Of a DNA stretch of 7,983 nt, positions 25 through 7,777 are shown piece after piece; within the stretch, counting starts at the first letter, position 1, and each line of letters starts with the position of its first letter. Source of the DNA: Clostridia bacterium (GTDB taxonomy: Bacteria > Bacillota_A > Clostridia > Oscillospirales > SIG627); NCBI GenBank assembly GCA_017508505.1, contig JAFVYT010000061.1, positions 1-7,983 on the forward strand, written 5' to 3'. Under the pieces are notes generated by a model that searched no databases, was not told the DNA's origin, and saw nothing but the letters and a program-made list of their open reading frames with translations. Position numbers and translations under genes: made by a program.

Positions 25-2238
25 TTACATTCCTTTCAAAAAGCGTTTGATGACAAGGGTTCTGAATTCGGGAGAGAGGCTGGCAAAATATGCCGTAAAG
101 CCCGTAACACGCACCACCAGATCCGGATGACGGTCGGGGTCCTCGTGAGCCTCCATCAGAGTCTTCTCGTCTAAAATGTTGATGTTGATGAGGGTACCGC
201 CCTCGCGGAAGTGCCCCAGCACAAACTGCTTGACGATCTCGATCCCTTCCTGATCGGGGCGAAGGTTCGGGTCAAACTCGATCTGAAGCGGTGCCGTGTT
301 GCCTCGGCCACACTGCACCGAGGCGATGCCTCTTGCCTGAGCGGTGGGAGCACCGTCCCGACGGAAGCCGGGATTGGGGTTGGCCCCGTGGGAGATGGGC
401 TCGCCCCTTCTCCTTCCGTTGGGGGTCGCACCGACGCATTTTCCGTATTCAATGCTTCTGGCCCAGGAGAACCATCCGGGCACGAGCCTGCGCCCTTGGG
501 GCATCTCTTCCTCCGTTACGGTTTTCGTCCAGACCTCCGTCAGGCGCTTGGCCCAGCGGTCGGCAGAGCTCCCTCCGCTGCAGTAGCGTGGCGCGGAGGA
601 GAGGATGAGGCGCGTGCGCTCCTCGGGGAAGTTCTGCTCCAGCGCGGTCAGAACCGTTTCCCAATCCAGCACACCTTCCTTTTCCACCCGATCCTCCAAG
701 GCCCCGAAGGAGTCGGCCACCACGGCAAGGCCCGCTCCGTCCACACCGACGGTGAAAAGGGATGCCGCTTGAGAAGCGTCCCGTCCCGTTTCGATGGTAT
801 TCTCCATCAAAAGGTTCATCACGATCTCGGGGGTCACCTCCCACTGGTGATCCAGATGGAGGTTGACGCCTTGGGCGGTGACGTGCACGGCGCACTTCAG
901 ATGCTCGCAGAAAAGGGAGAAGAGCCGCTCGGTGGAGTAGTGTTTCTCTTTCTTCATTTCCTCCAGCGCCACGTCAAAGACCTTGGCGACGTTGACCTTG
1001 ACCGTGTCGTTCATGGGGTATTCCTTCCCGGGGACGCACATCCAGTTGCATCCTACGGCAATGCGTTCACGGGCGGTTTTTTTGTCCACCCCATTTTTCA
1101 TATACCCCTCGGTCAGCGCCTTGTCGTTGCAAAATCTGGGCCAACCGTTTTTGTTTTTCAATAAATAATAGATGCCCTTCTCCACGACCCGCTCGTCGCA
1201 GTTTTCATGGACGCGGATCGTCAGGTTGCAGGAGATGTTCAGGCTGTCTGCCGCCTCCAGACAGAGAAAGGTCAGTTCGTTGGTTAGATCTCGGTCGTTT
1301 TCGTCCACACCCGAAAGCTGATAGTAGTGAGGATCGATCAAAAGGAGATTTGCAATGAGAAATTTTGCCTTTTCATCGTCCAGGATCCCGGCCGCCTTGT
1401 CCCGCAGATAGTAGGGGTACAAGAGAGTATCCAACTGAAAGCCCGCGCCGTCACGGGTGCAGATGCGAGCCGCACAGTTAAAGTACGCCGCCCACTGACA
1501 GACCTCGTGAAGGGTCTCGGGCTTGCCCAAGCGGATCCTTTCGTTCACCCGAAGCATCTCCTTCAGATTCTCCAGGATCTCAGGGCGCTTTTCCTTCTCG
1601 ATCAAGTCGCGGATGGCCCCGATGTGGCGATCGATGAAGGCTACGATGGAGAGCAGCACCCGACGCTCTGCCTCGTAAAAGGCCTTTTTGTCGGGATTTT
1701 TCTTTTCGTAAAAATCGATTTTTTCCAGAAGTCCTCCGAAGCCCAGGGCAAAGCCGATGCGATAGTCGCAGGCAAAGTGCGCGTCGGAGTCGATTCCCGT
1801 TTGAATGTTGTACTTTTTTTGCAGGGGCTTCAGATCATCGTAGGGAAAACGGATTTCGTCCCAGCGCTTGGACCACTGAGTGGTGGCCGACTTCATAAAT
1901 TCCAGCGTCTTGGGCTTATTCTTGAGCCAATCGGGCATATAGTGCAGGTCTCCGCGATAGTTGACCAGCATATCCCGCCATCTGCCGCACAGCATCTCCA
2001 AGGGATCCACGTACGGAGGGTGGGCATCCATCACCCGACAGAAATTCTCCGTCATCCCGTCGTAGCCGTAAAAGCTTCCGCTTTCACTGTTGTACCACGG
2101 AATGACCTCATATTCCTCGGGCAGGGGAACGGTGCCGAAATCATCCAGATCGGTGTAGCCGTTCTGGATTCTTTTTTCCTTTGTGTGGCGGGTCTTCGTT
2201 TCCCGAAGCATCGCCAGTCGGTCAGCGTATGAAAGCAT
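25..2238 (-). CDS. Glycyl radical enzyme, pyruvate formate-lyase (PFL-like) family, unknown substrate
   Basis: This is a 737-residue member of the PFL/glycyl radical enzyme family, oxygen-sensitive cytoplasmic enzymes that carry out dehydration, C-C, C-N or C-S cleavage. The C-terminal radical loop is present as RVTGFTAYF; the radical glycine is G713 (codon 102-100). The thiyl cysteine is C397 (codon 1050-1048) in AVGCNWMCVPGKE. This aligns with GCVEPQVPGK of diol dehydratase-type GREs, but the usual glutamate two residues after the cysteine is W399, and a second cysteine, C401, follows. Other family blocks are present: GATPNGRRRGEP, NPGFRRDGAPTA and a TLININILD segment before the glycine loop. 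Length is near PFL (about 760). I chose ATG 2238 because AAAAGGG lies 9 bases upstream and it overlaps the activase end by 17 nt. A longer frame reaches a GTG at 2286 but would add 16 residues deep inside the activase gene. It is not a canonical PFL, which has adjacent cysteines, and not a recognised GCxE dehydratase, decarboxylase or lyase. The family is certain; the reaction is unknown. Confidence 0.95.
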   Translation of the reverse strand: MLSYADRLAMLRETKTRHTKEKRIQNGYTDLDDFGTVPLPEEYEVIPWYNSESGSFYGYDGMTENFCRVMDAHPPYVDPLEMLCGRWRDMLVNYRGDLHYMPDWLKNKPKTLEFMKSATTQWSKRWDEIRFPYDDLKPLQKKYNIQTGIDSDAHFACDYRIGFALGFGGLLEKIDFYEKKNPDKKAFYEAERRVLLSIVAFIDRHIGAIRDLIEKEKRPEILENLKEMLRVNERIRLGKPETLHEVCQWAAYFNCAARICTRDGAGFQLDTLLYPYYLRDKAAGILDDEKAKFLIANLLLIDPHYYQLSGVDENDRDLTNELTFLCLEAADSLNISCNLTIRVHENCDERVVEKGIYYLLKNKNGWPRFCNDKALTEGYMKNGVDKKTARERIAVGCNWMCVPGKEYPMNDTVKVNVAKVFDVALEEMKKEKHYSTERLFSLFCEHLKCAVHVTAQGVNLHLDHQWEVTPEIVMNLLMENTIETGRDASQAASLFTVGVDGAGLAVVADSFGALEDRVEKEGVLDWETVLTALEQNFPEERTRLILSSAPRYCSGGSSADRWAKRLTEVWTKTVTEEEMPQGRRLVPGWFSWARSIEYGKCVGATPNGRRRGEPISHGANPNPGFRRDGAPTAQARGIASVQCGRGNTAPLQIEFDPNLRPDQEGIEIVKQFVLGHFREGGTLININILDEKTLMEAHEDPDRHPDLVVRVTGFTAYFASLSPEFRTLVIKRFLKGM

Positions 2239-2992
2239 ATTGTGATACCCTTTTCCATGTCGCTTCGTCGGGGACGGAAAAGGCACGCATCTCGATGCCG
2301 CAGGCCTTTGCCTTTTCCAGCCCCAGGGGGTGATAGGGGAGAAGTCGGTACTCCCGTACCGAGTCCAGACCCTTTAAAAACTGTGATATCTCGGGAATCC
2401 CCTGATCGATCTCGGGAATCACGGGGGTGCTTGCCACCGTGGGAATCCCCAATTCGTTCAAGCGTCTGAAATGCTCCGGAATCGTCTCATTCCCCACACC
2501 GGTGTAGGTGCGGTGCAGGTTACAATCCCAAATCTTGAAATCCGCCATAACAAGATCCACGGCGGAAAGGATTGCCTCGTCCCAGAGGATCAGAGAGGTC
2601 TCCACGGCAGTGTGAAGCCCCTCTTGCTTGCAAAGGGGGATCATCTCCAAAAGAAAGTCCCGCTGCATCAGGGGCTCTCCTCCGGAAAAGGTCACGCCGC
2701 CGTTTTTTCCGTAATAGCTCTGATCCGCAAGGAGCGCTTCCAAAAGCTCTTGGGGGGTGTACTCCGTTCCGCATTCCGTTCTTGCACCGGAAAAGCAGCC
2801 CTCGTCGCATTTTCCGCAGCCGATGCACTTTTCGGGGTAAAGGAGAAGCTGCTTTTTCGGAGAAATGCACTCGGGATTGTGGCACCACGCGCAGTGCAGG
2901 GGACAGCCCTTAAAGAATACCGTCGTGCGGATTCCGGGACCGTCGTGAAGAGAGAAGCGTTGCAGATCCGTAATGAGGCCTGTTTTTTTCAT
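2222..2992 (-). CDS. Glycyl radical enzyme activating protein (radical SAM)
   Basis: This 256-residue radical SAM enzyme is expected to install the glycyl radical on the GRE encoded immediately downstream, using S-adenosylmethionine and a 4Fe-4S cluster. The cluster motif CxxxCxxC is C30-C34-C37 (GCPLHCAWCHNPE). One ferredoxin-like motif follows, CIGCGKCDEGC (C56, C59, C62, C66). SGGEP at 103-107 is the SAM-binding motif, with GGVTF just before it. ADFKIWD near 150-156 and YTGVGNE at 163-169 match activase family blocks, and LLPYHPLG at 217-224 is the conserved C-terminal strand. Many activases of dehydratase-type GREs are about 300 residues and carry two auxiliary clusters; this one has a single complete motif, while PFL activase has none. 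It starts one base after the stop of the BNR gene (TAA-A-ATG) with only a weak ribosome binding site, so translational coupling is likely. It ends 17 nt inside the GRE gene. The N-terminal region (FSLHDGPGIRTTVFFKGC) is intact. Confidence 0.95.
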   Translation of the reverse strand: MKKTGLITDLQRFSLHDGPGIRTTVFFKGCPLHCAWCHNPECISPKKQLLLYPEKCIGCGKCDEGCFSGARTECGTEYTPQELLEALLADQSYYGKNGGVTFSGGEPLMQRDFLLEMIPLCKQEGLHTAVETSLILWDEAILSAVDLVMADFKIWDCNLHRTYTGVGNETIPEHFRRLNELGIPTVASTPVIPEIDQGIPEISQFLKGLDSVREYRLLPYHPLGLEKAKACGIEMRAFSVPDEATWKRVSQYAFIR

Positions 2993-4084: not shown

Positions 4085-4126
4085 TTGCTTTTTCGCTTTT
4101 TGAAAAGATATGGTTGATTTTTTCGC
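4085..4126. repeat. Direct repeat TTG(C/A)T5-6CGC, candidate regulator operator
   Basis: Two near-identical copies lie in the divergent intergenic region: TTGCTTTTTCGC at 4085-4096 and TTGATTTTTTCGC at 4114-4126, differing by one base and one extra T. They are offset by about 30 bp, close to three helical turns, and lie upstream of the operon -35 region. The right copy overlaps the -35 of the AraC-family gene. AraC-family regulators usually bind direct repeats, so this is a reasonable operator candidate. The region is T-rich, which makes chance similarity a real possibility. Confidence 0.35.
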
Positions 4127-4142
4127 ATCAAAGGGATATGAT
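4114..4142 (+). promoter_or_regulatory. Candidate sigma-A-type promoter of the AraC-family gene
   Basis: TTGATT at 4114-4119 and TATGAT at 4137-4142 are separated by exactly 17 bp, close to the TTGACA/TATAAT consensus. The predicted start point is near 4149. The strong AGGAGG ribosome binding site is at 4161-4166, 9 bases before ATG 4176. A perfect TTGACA further left (4075-4080) has no -10 at usable spacing, so I prefer this pair. Confidence 0.65.
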
Positions 4143-4175
4143 AGAGAAAAGCGAGAAAAAAGGAGGAGAAAAGCA

Positions 4176-5030
4176 ATGGAGCAAACGGGAAAGAGTCTTT
4201 CCTTTCGCATCCGCGGGATGACCGTGGAAACGCGCATTGACGGCTTTCGTACCTCCTCGGCGATCCAGCCCCGCTCCTTTTCCAACCATTCCCATACGGC
4301 CTTTGAGGTCTACTTTTTGGAGGAGGGGAGCCTTACGGTGAGCCTTGAGGGACAGCGGATCACCCTGCAGAAGGGGGACGTGTTCCTCATTTTCCCGGGG
4401 GTGGTGCACCGCTTGGAGGCCGTAGGGGAGAGGTCTGCAAAGTTCAATTTGCGCTTTCTTTTGTCCGAGCCGCTTTCTCTTACGGAGTCTCCCGCCTTTC
4501 TCCGATTGGAGCTGCAGGATGCCCTTCGGGAGGAGATCTTCTCCAACATCGCCTTTCTCCGTGCCCATCAGGAGCGGAGTGCCACGGAGCAAAGCGCATT
4601 TCGGATCCGCTCTTACCTAGGGATGCTCATCAGCGACATCCTGCCCTTCCTATTGCCAAAGGGACGGGAGAGGACGGAGGCAGAGCAGGAAAACACCCGT
4701 CTGGAGCGAAGCATCCGTCTGGAAAACTTTTTCCTTGCCCATTACGGGGAAAACGTTACTTTGGAGGATCTGGCAAGCACGCTGCATTACAGCAAGACCC
4801 ACGTCAACCGCATTCTCCGACAGAGCCTTGGAGCCAGCTTTTCCGAGAAGCTCTCGGAGGTTCGCATCGGCGTGGCCAAGGAGCTTCTGGAGGAGAGCGC
4901 GCTTCCCATCTCCAGGATCGGGGAGCGCTGCGGGTATTCCACCCTTCGGGGCTTCGAGCTCTTCTTTTTCAAAATGACGGGGCTCCTCCCGCGGGAGTAC
5001 CGTGCCAAAAGAACGAAAAAGCAACCTTGA
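4176..5030 (+). CDS. AraC-family transcriptional regulator with N-terminal cupin domain
   Basis: This 284-residue regulator has an N-terminal cupin ligand-binding domain (about 36-90): HSHTAFEVYFLEEGSL with H38, H40 and E44, then QKGDVFLIFPGVVHRLEA with H78. A linker follows, then the C-terminal AraC DNA-binding domain (about 180-276) with two helix-turn-helix units. The first is around 195-216 (TLEDLASTLHYSKTHVNRIL). The second is around 244-274, with the signature CGYSTLRGF and the family ending GLLPREYR. I chose ATG 4176 over an in-frame ATG at 4110 because AGGAGG lies 9 bases upstream and because 4110 precedes the predicted promoter. It is divergent from the GRE operon across 183 bp, so it is the natural candidate to sense the operon's sugar or related substrate and activate it (inference). 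Its stop codon lies in the loop of the terminator. Confidence 0.93.
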   Translation: MEQTGKSLSFRIRGMTVETRIDGFRTSSAIQPRSFSNHSHTAFEVYFLEEGSLTVSLEGQRITLQKGDVFLIFPGVVHRLEAVGERSAKFNLRFLLSEPLSLTESPAFLRLELQDALREEIFSNIAFLRAHQERSATEQSAFRIRSYLGMLISDILPFLLPKGRERTEAEQENTRLERSIRLENFFLAHYGENVTLEDLASTLHYSKTHVNRILRQSLGASFSEKLSEVRIGVAKELLEESALPISRIGERCGYSTLRGFELFFFKMTGLLPREYRAKRTKKQP

Positions 5031-6003: not shown

Positions 6004-7434
6004 TCAGGATTCTTCCTTCTTGGTGCTTTCGGTCTTTTCGTCGGTCTCGGGGGTTTTGTCGGGCTCCTCTTCCACGGGCGCATAGGGATCGCGACCCATA
6101 CTGACCACAAGATCTACCACGGTGTAGCGCTGTGCGGAGGAGGTTCCCGCAGGCACGCTCTGTCGGATGACTGCTCCCTCCTTTACCTTGGAGGAGTATT
6201 CCTTCGTGATCTTACCTACGATAAAGCCGTTGCCGAGGAGCTTTTCCTTTGCCTCCTCGACGGGGATCTCACACACGTCCACCATATCCACGTACGAGGT
6301 CTCGGCGCCCTTTGACACCACAAGATGCACGGTGCCGCCGTTGTTGACGGTCTTTCCTGCCTCGGGAACGGTGGAAATGATGTGCCCTGCTATGACCTCG
6401 GGGTCAAAGACCTCCTCTACGGTGACGTTGGCTCCCTTTTCCATCAGGCTGATTCGCACCTTGCGGTATTCCTTACTCTTATAATCCTCGAGGGTGAAGC
6501 TTTTCTTGCCTTTGGAGACCTCGATGCTGATCTCCACCGTCTGATTTTGGTTTGCGATCTTTCGGGTTTGTCCCCCCTCGGGATTCTGATAGGAGATCTG
6601 CCCTGCGTCATATACGTCGTTGTTGACCTCCTTGACGCTCAGGATGATGTTTTGTGCCTCCAGACTTGCCTTCAATTCATCCGTCAGGGTTTGTCCCACC
6701 AGATCCGGAATCGGAATGACCACGGTGTTGTCCTCGCTGGTCATATCAATCAGGGAGGAGAGCAGCAGGATGCCCGCGACCGCCACCACCAAGAGAAAGG
6801 CCGTGGTAACTCCGAAGATGATGGGGAAAAGGGTAAGCCTGGTGGGCGTCTCCTTCTTTTGCGGCTTTTCAGCGACTCGTGCTACGGGAGCGGGAGCAGG
6901 CTTCGCGGTGGGATCCTCAAATACGACGGTCTTGTCCTTTTTGATGATCTCGCAGGCTCTCAGCATGCTCTTGGCCGAGCGGAAGCGGTTTTCCGGTGCC
7001 TTGTTCATGGCGCGGAGAATGATCTGCTCCAGACCCTGAGGCAGAGTGGGGTCGATTTTTCTGGGACGGGTGGGCGTAGAATTGACCTGCATCATTGCGA
7101 TGGAAAGGGGCGTGTCTCCCTCAAAGGGGAGCTTTCCCGTTGCCATCACGTAGAGCATAATACCCACGGAATAAATGTCCGAGGAGAAGGTGGTGGTCTT
7201 GCCGCTCGCCTGCTCGGGGGAAATGTAGTAAACGGTGCCCATGGCCACTCCGGAGTTGGACTGCTTGGTATCGCTGATTTGGGCGATGCCGAAGTCTGTC
7301 ACCTTGAGCTTGCCCCCTGCCTGCACCATAATGTTTTGGGGCTTGATGTCCCGATGCACCACACCCTTTTCGTGGGCGTGCTGCAGTGCAGACAAAATCT
7401 GAACGGTGAAGTCGAGACTCTTCTCAAGACCCAA
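6004..7434 (-). CDS. prkC: PASTA Ser/Thr kinase, C-terminal part: catalytic lobe, membrane segment, three PASTA domains (frameshifted)
   Basis: This frame holds most of a PrkC/StkP-type membrane kinase. Counting from the TTG at 7434: catalytic loop VVHRDIKPQN (H27, R28, D29, K31, N34), DFG at 47-49, and the activation segment ending in GTVYYISPEQ (SPE at 72-74). A Pro/Ala-rich juxtamembrane linker lies at about 175-200, one transmembrane helix at about 201-228, and three PASTA domains at about 240-308, 311-376 and 379-447. An acidic Thr/Ser-rich tail ends the protein. In the family, PASTA domains bind muropeptides outside the cell and the kinase acts in the cytoplasm. This part lacks the glycine loop, catalytic lysine and helix C, which lie in another frame (7424-7777). 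The TTG at 7434 is only where the frame can open; it has no ribosome binding site and codes for the Leu expected in NGPLGLEKS. I treat this as the second half of one gene broken at 7435-7439. The stop lies 2 bases before rsgA. Confidence 0.9.
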   Translation of the reverse strand: MGLEKSLDFTVQILSALQHAHEKGVVHRDIKPQNIMVQAGGKLKVTDFGIAQISDTKQSNSGVAMGTVYYISPEQASGKTTTFSSDIYSVGIMLYVMATGKLPFEGDTPLSIAMMQVNSTPTRPRKIDPTLPQGLEQIILRAMNKAPENRFRSAKSMLRACEIIKKDKTVVFEDPTAKPAPAPVARVAEKPQKKETPTRLTLFPIIFGVTTAFLLVVAVAGILLLSSLIDMTSEDNTVVIPIPDLVGQTLTDELKASLEAQNIILSVKEVNNDVYDAGQISYQNPEGGQTRKIANQNQTVEISIEVSKGKKSFTLEDYKSKEYRKVRISLMEKGANVTVEEVFDPEVIAGHIISTVPEAGKTVNNGGTVHLVVSKGAETSYVDMVDVCEIPVEEAKEKLLGNGFIVGKITKEYSSKVKEGAVIRQSVPAGTSSAQRYTVVDLVVSMGRDPYAPVEEEPDKTPETDEKTESTKKEES

Positions 7435-7777
7435 GGGGGCCGTTGCGCTTCATATATTCTCTCAGGGTGATCCCGTCGATATACTCCATCACAAGGTACT
7501 TGTTTTTCCCCGTGAAGGCCACGTCGTAAATGTCCACGATATGCTCGTGAGAAAGCAACGCAATGGCGCGGGATTCATTCACAAATCGGCGAACCGAGGC
7601 AGAGTCTCCCTCGTTCTTTTCGTTGAGCATTTTGATGGCCACGATTCGGTTTTTTTCCAGATCCTTGGCCTTCAGAACCACCGCCATACCGCCGATGCCC
7701 TTCACCTGAAGGATTTCGTAACGGTCGTCGATGACCTTTCCTACCAAATGGTCGTATTTGTGTTGAGCGGAATCCAT
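7424..7777 (-). CDS. prkC: PASTA Ser/Thr kinase, N-terminal part: N-lobe (truncated by frameshift)
   Basis: This 117-residue frame is the N-lobe of the same kinase. It shows the glycine-rich loop KGIGGMAVV (26-34), the catalytic lysine in VAIKML (K49), the helix C glutamate in FVNESRA (E68) and the hinge VMEYIDG (96-102). It reads ...MKRNGPLGS and then stops at TGA, exactly where PrkC homologues continue into the first helix of the large lobe. ATG 7777 has AAGGAG about 6 bases upstream and lies 15 bases after the PP2C phosphatase stop. Removing one C at the frameshift joins P114 to LGLEKSLDFTVQIL of the downstream frame and gives a 590-residue kinase of normal size. As sequenced, this fragment lacks the catalytic loop and cannot phosphorylate anything. 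Confidence 0.9.
   Translation of the reverse strand: MDSAQHKYDHLVGKVIDDRYEILQVKGIGGMAVVLKAKDLEKNRIVAIKMLNEKNEGDSASVRRFVNESRAIALLSHEHIVDIYDVAFTGKNKYLVMEYIDGITLREYMKRNGPLGS
7435..7439 (-). other. Frameshift site in the kinase gene (run of five C on the coding strand)
   Basis: The coding strand reads AAC GGC CCC CTT GGG TCT TGA, giving NGPLGS and stop. With one C fewer it reads AAC GGC CCC TTG GGT CTT GAG, giving NGPLGLE and continuing into the catalytic lobe. A single extra base in the C5 run therefore explains the split. A homopolymer indel from sequencing or assembly is the simplest cause. A true mutation or +1 slippage at CCC-C is possible. Confidence 0.85.

Follow-up and report, generated by a model that had tools for sequence, protein, structure and literature searches.

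The window analyzed in this study, which is the whole 7,983-nucleotide stretch of contig JAFVYT010000061.1 from a Clostridia bacterium, harbors a gene unit that encodes a glycyl radical enzyme (GRE) of a clade designated here GCxW after its active-site motif. The following features were assigned:

25..2238, minus strand: GRE of the GCxW clade, 737 amino acids, with thiyl cysteine C397, W399, D411, H154 and radical glycine G713
1036..1053, minus strand: active-site cysteine loop G396-C397-N398-W399-M400-C401, assigned from the sequence, the alignment to C433-V-E435 of glycerol dehydratase (GDH) and conservation
2222..2992, minus strand: radical SAM activase (GRE-AE), with CPLHCAWC and a ferredoxin-like cysteine cluster; TIGR02494
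2994..3992, minus strand: BNR_2 protein with a sialidase fold; its gene opens the unit
4110..5030, plus strand: divergent AraC-type regulator, HTH_18 and AraC_binding above cut-off, exact start uncertain

The activase gene overlaps the start of the GRE gene (ATG at 2238) by 17 bases, and its product scored 243.7 bits against TIGR02494 (NCBIfam cut-off, 174.35). The GRE exceeded the Pfam cut-offs for both PFL-like (273 bits) and Gly_radical (48 bits), matched the full ten-stranded-barrel GRE fold in the PDB and gave an AlphaFold2 model with a mean pLDDT of 92.5. All the marks of the superfamily were found, namely the RVxG[FWY] motif, a mid-protein cysteine, a neighboring activase with CX3CX2C and the barrel. 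Moreover, the radical-glycine motif RVTGFTAYF (G713) is kept near the C-terminus, in agreement with an earlier sequence-only reading, which had found the glycine loop intact and had judged the enzyme to look functional. The BNR_2 gene probably encodes a glycosidase; GH33 sialidases combine the sialidase fold with a catalytic triad of Glu/Tyr, Asp and Arg. The AraC-type regulator has relatives close to the GRE at other loci as well. Elsewhere in the window, a gene recognized by eye as encoding a Ser/Thr kinase is broken into two minus-strand frames (7424-7777 and 6004-7434) that overlap at approximately 7424-7434, which may reflect a real frameshift or a sequencing error.

In the translation of 25-2238 (minus strand), residue 397 is surrounded by VGCNWMCVPGKEYPMND. 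A profile of 20 relatives was aligned with solved GREs without gaps in this loop, and the alignment to the glycerol dehydratase 1r8w paired C397 with C433, W399 with E435, D411 with D447 and H154 with H164. Glu occupies the place of W399 in all five solved relatives compared (PflD, 2f3o, 1r8w, the HypD 6vxc and the HplG 7vua), which, together with the gap-free loop, indicates that a glutamate has truly been exchanged for tryptophan. The sequence-only reading had named C397 as the thiyl cysteine and placed W399 where Glu was expected; both assignments hold, since the two residues pair with C433 and E435 of GDH. Its residue numbers (C397, W399 and C401) also stand, whereas its nucleotide span, 1040..1056, lay approximately 3 bases off the true 1036-1053. 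The Glu two residues after the cysteine that marks GCxE-type eliminases is replaced by W399 in the window GRE, and GCNW contains no adjacent cysteine pair of the pyruvate formate-lyase (PFL) type, a point on which the earlier reading was likewise correct; the PFL model TIGR01255 gave 66 bits against a cut-off of 994.

Of 7995 candidates scored in a protein search, 1240 reached E ≤1e-3, and the best 120 of these 1240 were examined. GCNW was present in the window GRE and in all of these 120 homologues, and of the 121 sequences, one had Ala and another Ser at the C401 column. In addition, genomes were scanned with two patterns, one of which was the motif; 166 stretches were confirmed and 80 loci were kept. 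Together with 30 rows found by similarity, these formed a set of 110 genome rows (identity, ≥40%); five of the 30 repeated scan genomes, leaving 25 new rows and 105 rows without repeats. Tryptophan was found at position 399 in 110/110 rows, in 105/105 without repeats and in all 25 new rows, which were found independently of the motif scan. C397, E406 and D411 were each conserved in 110/110 rows, H154 in 108/108, and G713 in all 109 of the 110 rows that reach its motif, the row of locus L048 ending before it. The N398 column contained N in 95, H in 14 and Q in one row. The earlier reading had pointed to C401 as a notable second cysteine, and this did not survive: the column held C in 55, S in 36, A in 17, V in one and G in one of the 110 rows, and its variation between Cys, Ser and Ala rules out a second catalytic cysteine at this position. 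E406 was also considered as a candidate for a displaced base; HypD rows, too, carry a nearby Glu in the loop, so that E406 may instead be structural. The signature of the clade can be written GC[NHQ]W-x2-[VILP]PGxE-x4-D. One locus below the 40% threshold and outside the 110 rows, L108, carried GCHWLA. In the GRE of this family at locus L092 (G598:C18), an in-frame TGA falls at the F167 column, where 41 of the 110 rows have Trp; it may be read as Trp or be an error.

The clade is widespread. Record titles of its members span six phyla (Bacillota, Bacteroidota, Planctomycetota, Verrucomicrobiota, Lentisphaerota and Chlorobiota), and cecum, colon, rectum or omasum was named in the titles of 28 of the 80 scanned loci. 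Phylum samples were searched by similarity only (E ≤1e-100, seeds counted). For the phylum to which the Ereboglobus seed belongs, 21 of 387 genomes contained members; the corresponding figures were 3 of 398 for the Oscillospiraceae seed, 3 of 294 for the Planctomycetota seed and 1 of 395 for the Puteibacter seed. A plasmid search yielded two GCxW members, from Flammeovirga and Persicobacter (44-45% identical), and 132 further records with weaker matches.

A tree of 64 rows was built by a quick method with SH-aLRT in place of bootstrap support, leaving out loci L134, L136 and L148 and sequences of BssA, IslA and HpsG. A branch with SH-aLRT 100 separated all 28 GCxW rows (L079 and L137 being identical) from the CutC and HypD rows (both over their NCBIfam cut-offs), from E. 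coli PflB, YbiW and PflD, and from other GREs of the same genomes. The GCNW group for which the sequence-only reading had proposed a search therefore exists, in the form of a GCxW clade with Trp in 110/110 rows, and its suggestion that the enzyme has no characterized relative with this Trp is upheld among the GREs compared (PFL, CutC, HypD, PflD and YbiW). The sequence of locus L132 (GCQWYC-PGKEY, 27% identical to the window GRE) was the sister, with support 98 and a long-branch warning. In 32 other GREs, the W399 column held Glu in 26, Ser in three of PFL type, and Asp, Trp (L140) and Gln in one each, and thus the GCxW clade is not alone in having lost the Glu. L140 (G013:C57:5900-8800) is a distant GRE with GCNWCSPGD, which has Trp after the Cys and lacks the PGxE...D signature, and possibly represents an independent Glu-to-Trp change. 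Furthermore, a second GRE or a piece of one, 23-26% identical to the window GRE, lies within approximately 5 kb of the GCxW GRE in L047, L049, L051, L052, L020 and L082, with the motifs GCGEY (L047, L049), GCQEP (L020) and GCNQI (L052), the last also without Glu.

The window GRE reached no NCBIfam GRE cut-off among the models for the PflD type, HpsG, HpfG, HypD, CutC, indoleacetate and hydroxyphenylacetate decarboxylases and PFL. The best equivalogue was NF007437 (PflD type; 191 vs 1109 bits), and the broad subfamily TIGR01774 gave 233 vs 678 bits. The window GRE shows the features of its own clade, namely W two residues after Cys, E406, D411, H154 and a place in the single clade. A literature search, in which subscription papers and supplementary networks lay mostly beyond reach, found no paper pairing "glycyl radical" with GCNW, and none pairing "glycyl radical enzyme" with GCVE either. 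The absence of GCVE suggests that papers may not print such motifs, and the clade may already be in print as an unnamed cluster. On the strength of these sequence comparisons, GCxW is a genuine, widespread and uncharacterized GRE clade, defined by the replacement of Glu with Trp.

Family rows were compared with other GREs, omitting L134, L136, L148, the near copies L086, L122 and L125, and the sister L132. Constant in the GCxW family and rare elsewhere were W399, Y305, Q307, N338, E406, D411, K414, D500, F590, W592, Q652, D656 and N685. The structure model predicts barrel strands at 305-309, 338-343, 494-502, 651-656 and 683-688, and seven of the family-specific invariants besides W399 (Y305, Q307, N338, D500, Q652, D656 and N685) would lie on them. 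The pocket therefore seems to have been rebuilt as a whole, which favors a new substrate over the loss of one residue. The His/Asp pair of the GDH type is kept, with H154 and D411 invariant in the family; as HypD, CutC and YbiW have other residues at the D411 column, the His/Asp argument concerns only the GDH/PflD type. Judged from sequence, an eliminase acting on a different substrate would fit the kept His/Asp pair and the joint pocket changes as well as a new chemistry would. In IseG, according to a structural study (PMC6453916), the conserved glutamate is required to deprotonate the substrate hydroxyl.

Operons were called by crude ORF finding with gaps of <250 bases. The activase was present in 79 of 99 operons and a gene of a Gfo/Idh/MocA cluster in 51; the other 48, the window's among them, had none. 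Among genes of at least 150 amino acids, with the GRE and activase left out, the cluster accounted for 133 of 356 in-operon genes and for 33 of the 726 that lay elsewhere in these loci. The loci are related, so that a p-value for this enrichment would not be a fair probability. The cluster was built by BLAST linkage, with few members checked against profiles; one member matched DgpA (7.7e-48), and a second (L014) gave weak, partial PDB matches, the best at 6e-07. A DgpA link was considered and set aside: one cluster member matches, but L014 is weak and the window unit has no Gfo/Idh/MocA gene. In 28 of the 99 operons, the cluster protein directly upstream of the activase (e.g., L014:8148-9254) bears HMH near its N-terminus, and these proteins may form a distinct sub-family.

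TIM barrels of the isomerase type also occur among the neighbors, and for one of them a 3-keto-D-glucoside 4-epimerase ranked second among the PDB matches (2.5e-10). GH130, GH47, GH92 and sulfatase genes lie near the GRE in Bacteroidota loci, and a NanA-like aldolase and a sialidase-fold gene lie beside it in L081. Sugar enzymes thus neighbor the GRE in many lineages. The neighbors differ between lineages, however, and several genes downstream are unrelated to sugars: methionyl-tRNA synthetase and asparaginase (L076), a histidine kinase (L062), a POR-type TPP enzyme (L059) and HSDR_N (L075). In the Puteibacter locus (L066:831-13577), inositol-degradation genes, with IolG and MMSDH over cut-off, lead into an AraC-activase-GRE-cupin-RhaT module. 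A deoxyhexose hint from the RhaT-like transporter of this locus was not retained; a similar N-terminus in L072 was identified by eye. The small cupin-like protein (L002:22145-22561 and seven other loci) has no Pfam match and resembles the solved CA_C3497 (3d0j, E 1.5e-15); its gene comes immediately after the GRE in L001, L002, L066 and L073, and four Clostridia loci contain it as well.

The window GRE, from a gut bacterium, belongs to a large uncharacterized clade that shares the Trp exchange and often lies beside sugar-processing genes; it therefore probably carries out an as yet unassigned radical reaction on sugars. As its most likely function we tentatively propose, with a probability of roughly 0.4, a radical C-O lyase that acts on a cyclic sugar, a sugar derivative or a cyclitol and in which a Trp stacking platform replaces the glutamate. 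Tryptophan is known to stack on sugar rings in sugar-binding sites. In such a mechanism, the activase would generate the G713 radical, which would pass to C397, and the C397 thiyl would take a hydrogen from a carbinol carbon of the substrate. This cyclic sugar, derivative or cyclitol would probably carry no phosphate, and its ring would be stacked on W399. The H154/D411 pair, equivalent to H164/D447 of GDH, would perform the acid/base work that glutamate aids in GCxE lyases, and breakage of the C-O bond, by dehydration or ring opening, would yield a product with a keto or aldehyde group. Neighboring glycosidases (sialidase-fold, GH47, GH130) or a DgpA-like oxidation might free or prepare the substrate, with Gfo/Idh/MocA enzymes balancing redox. 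A broader proposition is doubtful at present: that GCxW is a new functional GRE class without a glutamate base, acting on intact cyclic sugars or glycoside-derived keto/anhydro sugars, coupled to Gfo/Idh/MocA 3-keto-sugar chemistry and giving glycan catabolism a radical branch in herbivore gut Clostridia, Bacteroidota and Verrucomicrobiota.

Several other readings were weighed. The sialidase-fold gene of the window unit, the NanA-like DHDPS aldolase and BNR_2 gene of L081, a ROK-type kinase (identified by eye from its N-terminus) adjoining some members and a PL8 lyase upstream in L072 could point to a lyase for C-N or other heteroatom bonds of an amino sugar or sialic-acid-type sugar, with eliminase chemistry unchanged and a leaving group other than water. 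This is improbable, since such neighbors occur in few lineages, the L081 aldolase is under every NCBIfam cut-off, and both C-N lyases aligned, CutC and HplG, retain the glutamate. It is just as improbable that the enzyme is a non-eliminase that, lacking the glutamate base, cleaves or forms C-C bonds like PFL or the fumarate-adding enzymes. PFL has no Glu at the site, the three PFL-type rows carrying Ser, and in L059 the GRE gene is followed by one for a POR-type TPP enzyme; however, the cysteine pair is absent, the TIGR01255 score is far too low, and benzylsuccinate and alkylsuccinate synthases (4pkc, 9o8u) matched more weakly than eliminases did.

A ring opening in the manner of YbiW/PflD, which presumably catalyze an anhydroglycolysis reaction, but with an unphosphorylated 1,5-anhydro sugar as substrate, has a small chance of being correct. 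It would be fed by DgpA-like redox deglycosylation, for which a DgpA-like partner is at hand, and PflD is the best-scoring solved relative, but the identity to PflD and YbiW is approximately 25%, both lie in another branch, and the PflD-type model was far from reached. The chance of an inositol-type cyclitol lyase is smaller still. Just upstream and on the same strand, L066 has IolG (455 vs a cut-off of 355), MMSDH (558 vs 448), an IolE-like gene (220, under 290) and an IolD-like gene (by eye); nevertheless, this is a single locus, its IolD-like, MMSDH and IolE-like proteins had no match at E 1e-15 in other loci, its IolG had just 24-30% matches there among the matches listed, and AraC and cupin genes recur beside other GREs without these inositol genes. 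Finally, a sequence error or misalignment masking an ordinary GCxE site is refuted by the gap-free loop and its conservation in more than 200 sequences, and nothing was found in its favor.

New GRE classes have tended to reveal new reactions of anaerobic gut metabolism. The introduction of PMC11528403 makes a similar point. The GCxW clade lacks the glutamate described as required in the IseG study (PMC6453916), yet it is intact and conserved, and it would test how far radical elimination needs this residue. If the proposed C-O lyase on cyclic sugars is correct, the clade may link glycan breakdown to radical chemistry.

Compared with known systems, the window GRE shares with the B12-independent glycerol/propanediol dehydratases (1r8w, 5i2a, 9rco) the GRE fold, the Cys and Gly motifs and the equivalents of His164/Asp447, and differs in having Trp in place of Glu435 and only 18-22% identity; the H281/S282 stretch of glycerol dehydratase aligns with RDGAGF. 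PflD and YbiW, which we take to be 1,5-anhydrohexitol-6-phosphate lyases, are both GCxE enzymes on a separate branch, although PflD is the best PDB sequence match and keeps the His/Asp pair. A PflD homologue has been crystallized with 1,5-anhydromannitol-6-phosphate (8id0, PDB title). The Archaeoglobus fulgidus GRE 2f3o, whose title names no function, has GCVE rather than GCxW. CutC, HypD, IslA/IseG, HpsG and the arylacetate decarboxylases share the fold, but the CutC and HypD rows have Glu at the site, and the window GRE falls below the cut-offs of CutC, HypD, HpsG/HpfG and the two decarboxylases. PFL shares the fold and likewise lacks Glu at the site, whereas its CC pair is missing here. The aminoacyl radical enzymes (Ala, Ser or Thr radicals) described in PMC11528403 are homologues of GREs, encoded near an activase, to which no function has been assigned; unlike them, the window GRE retains its radical glycine.
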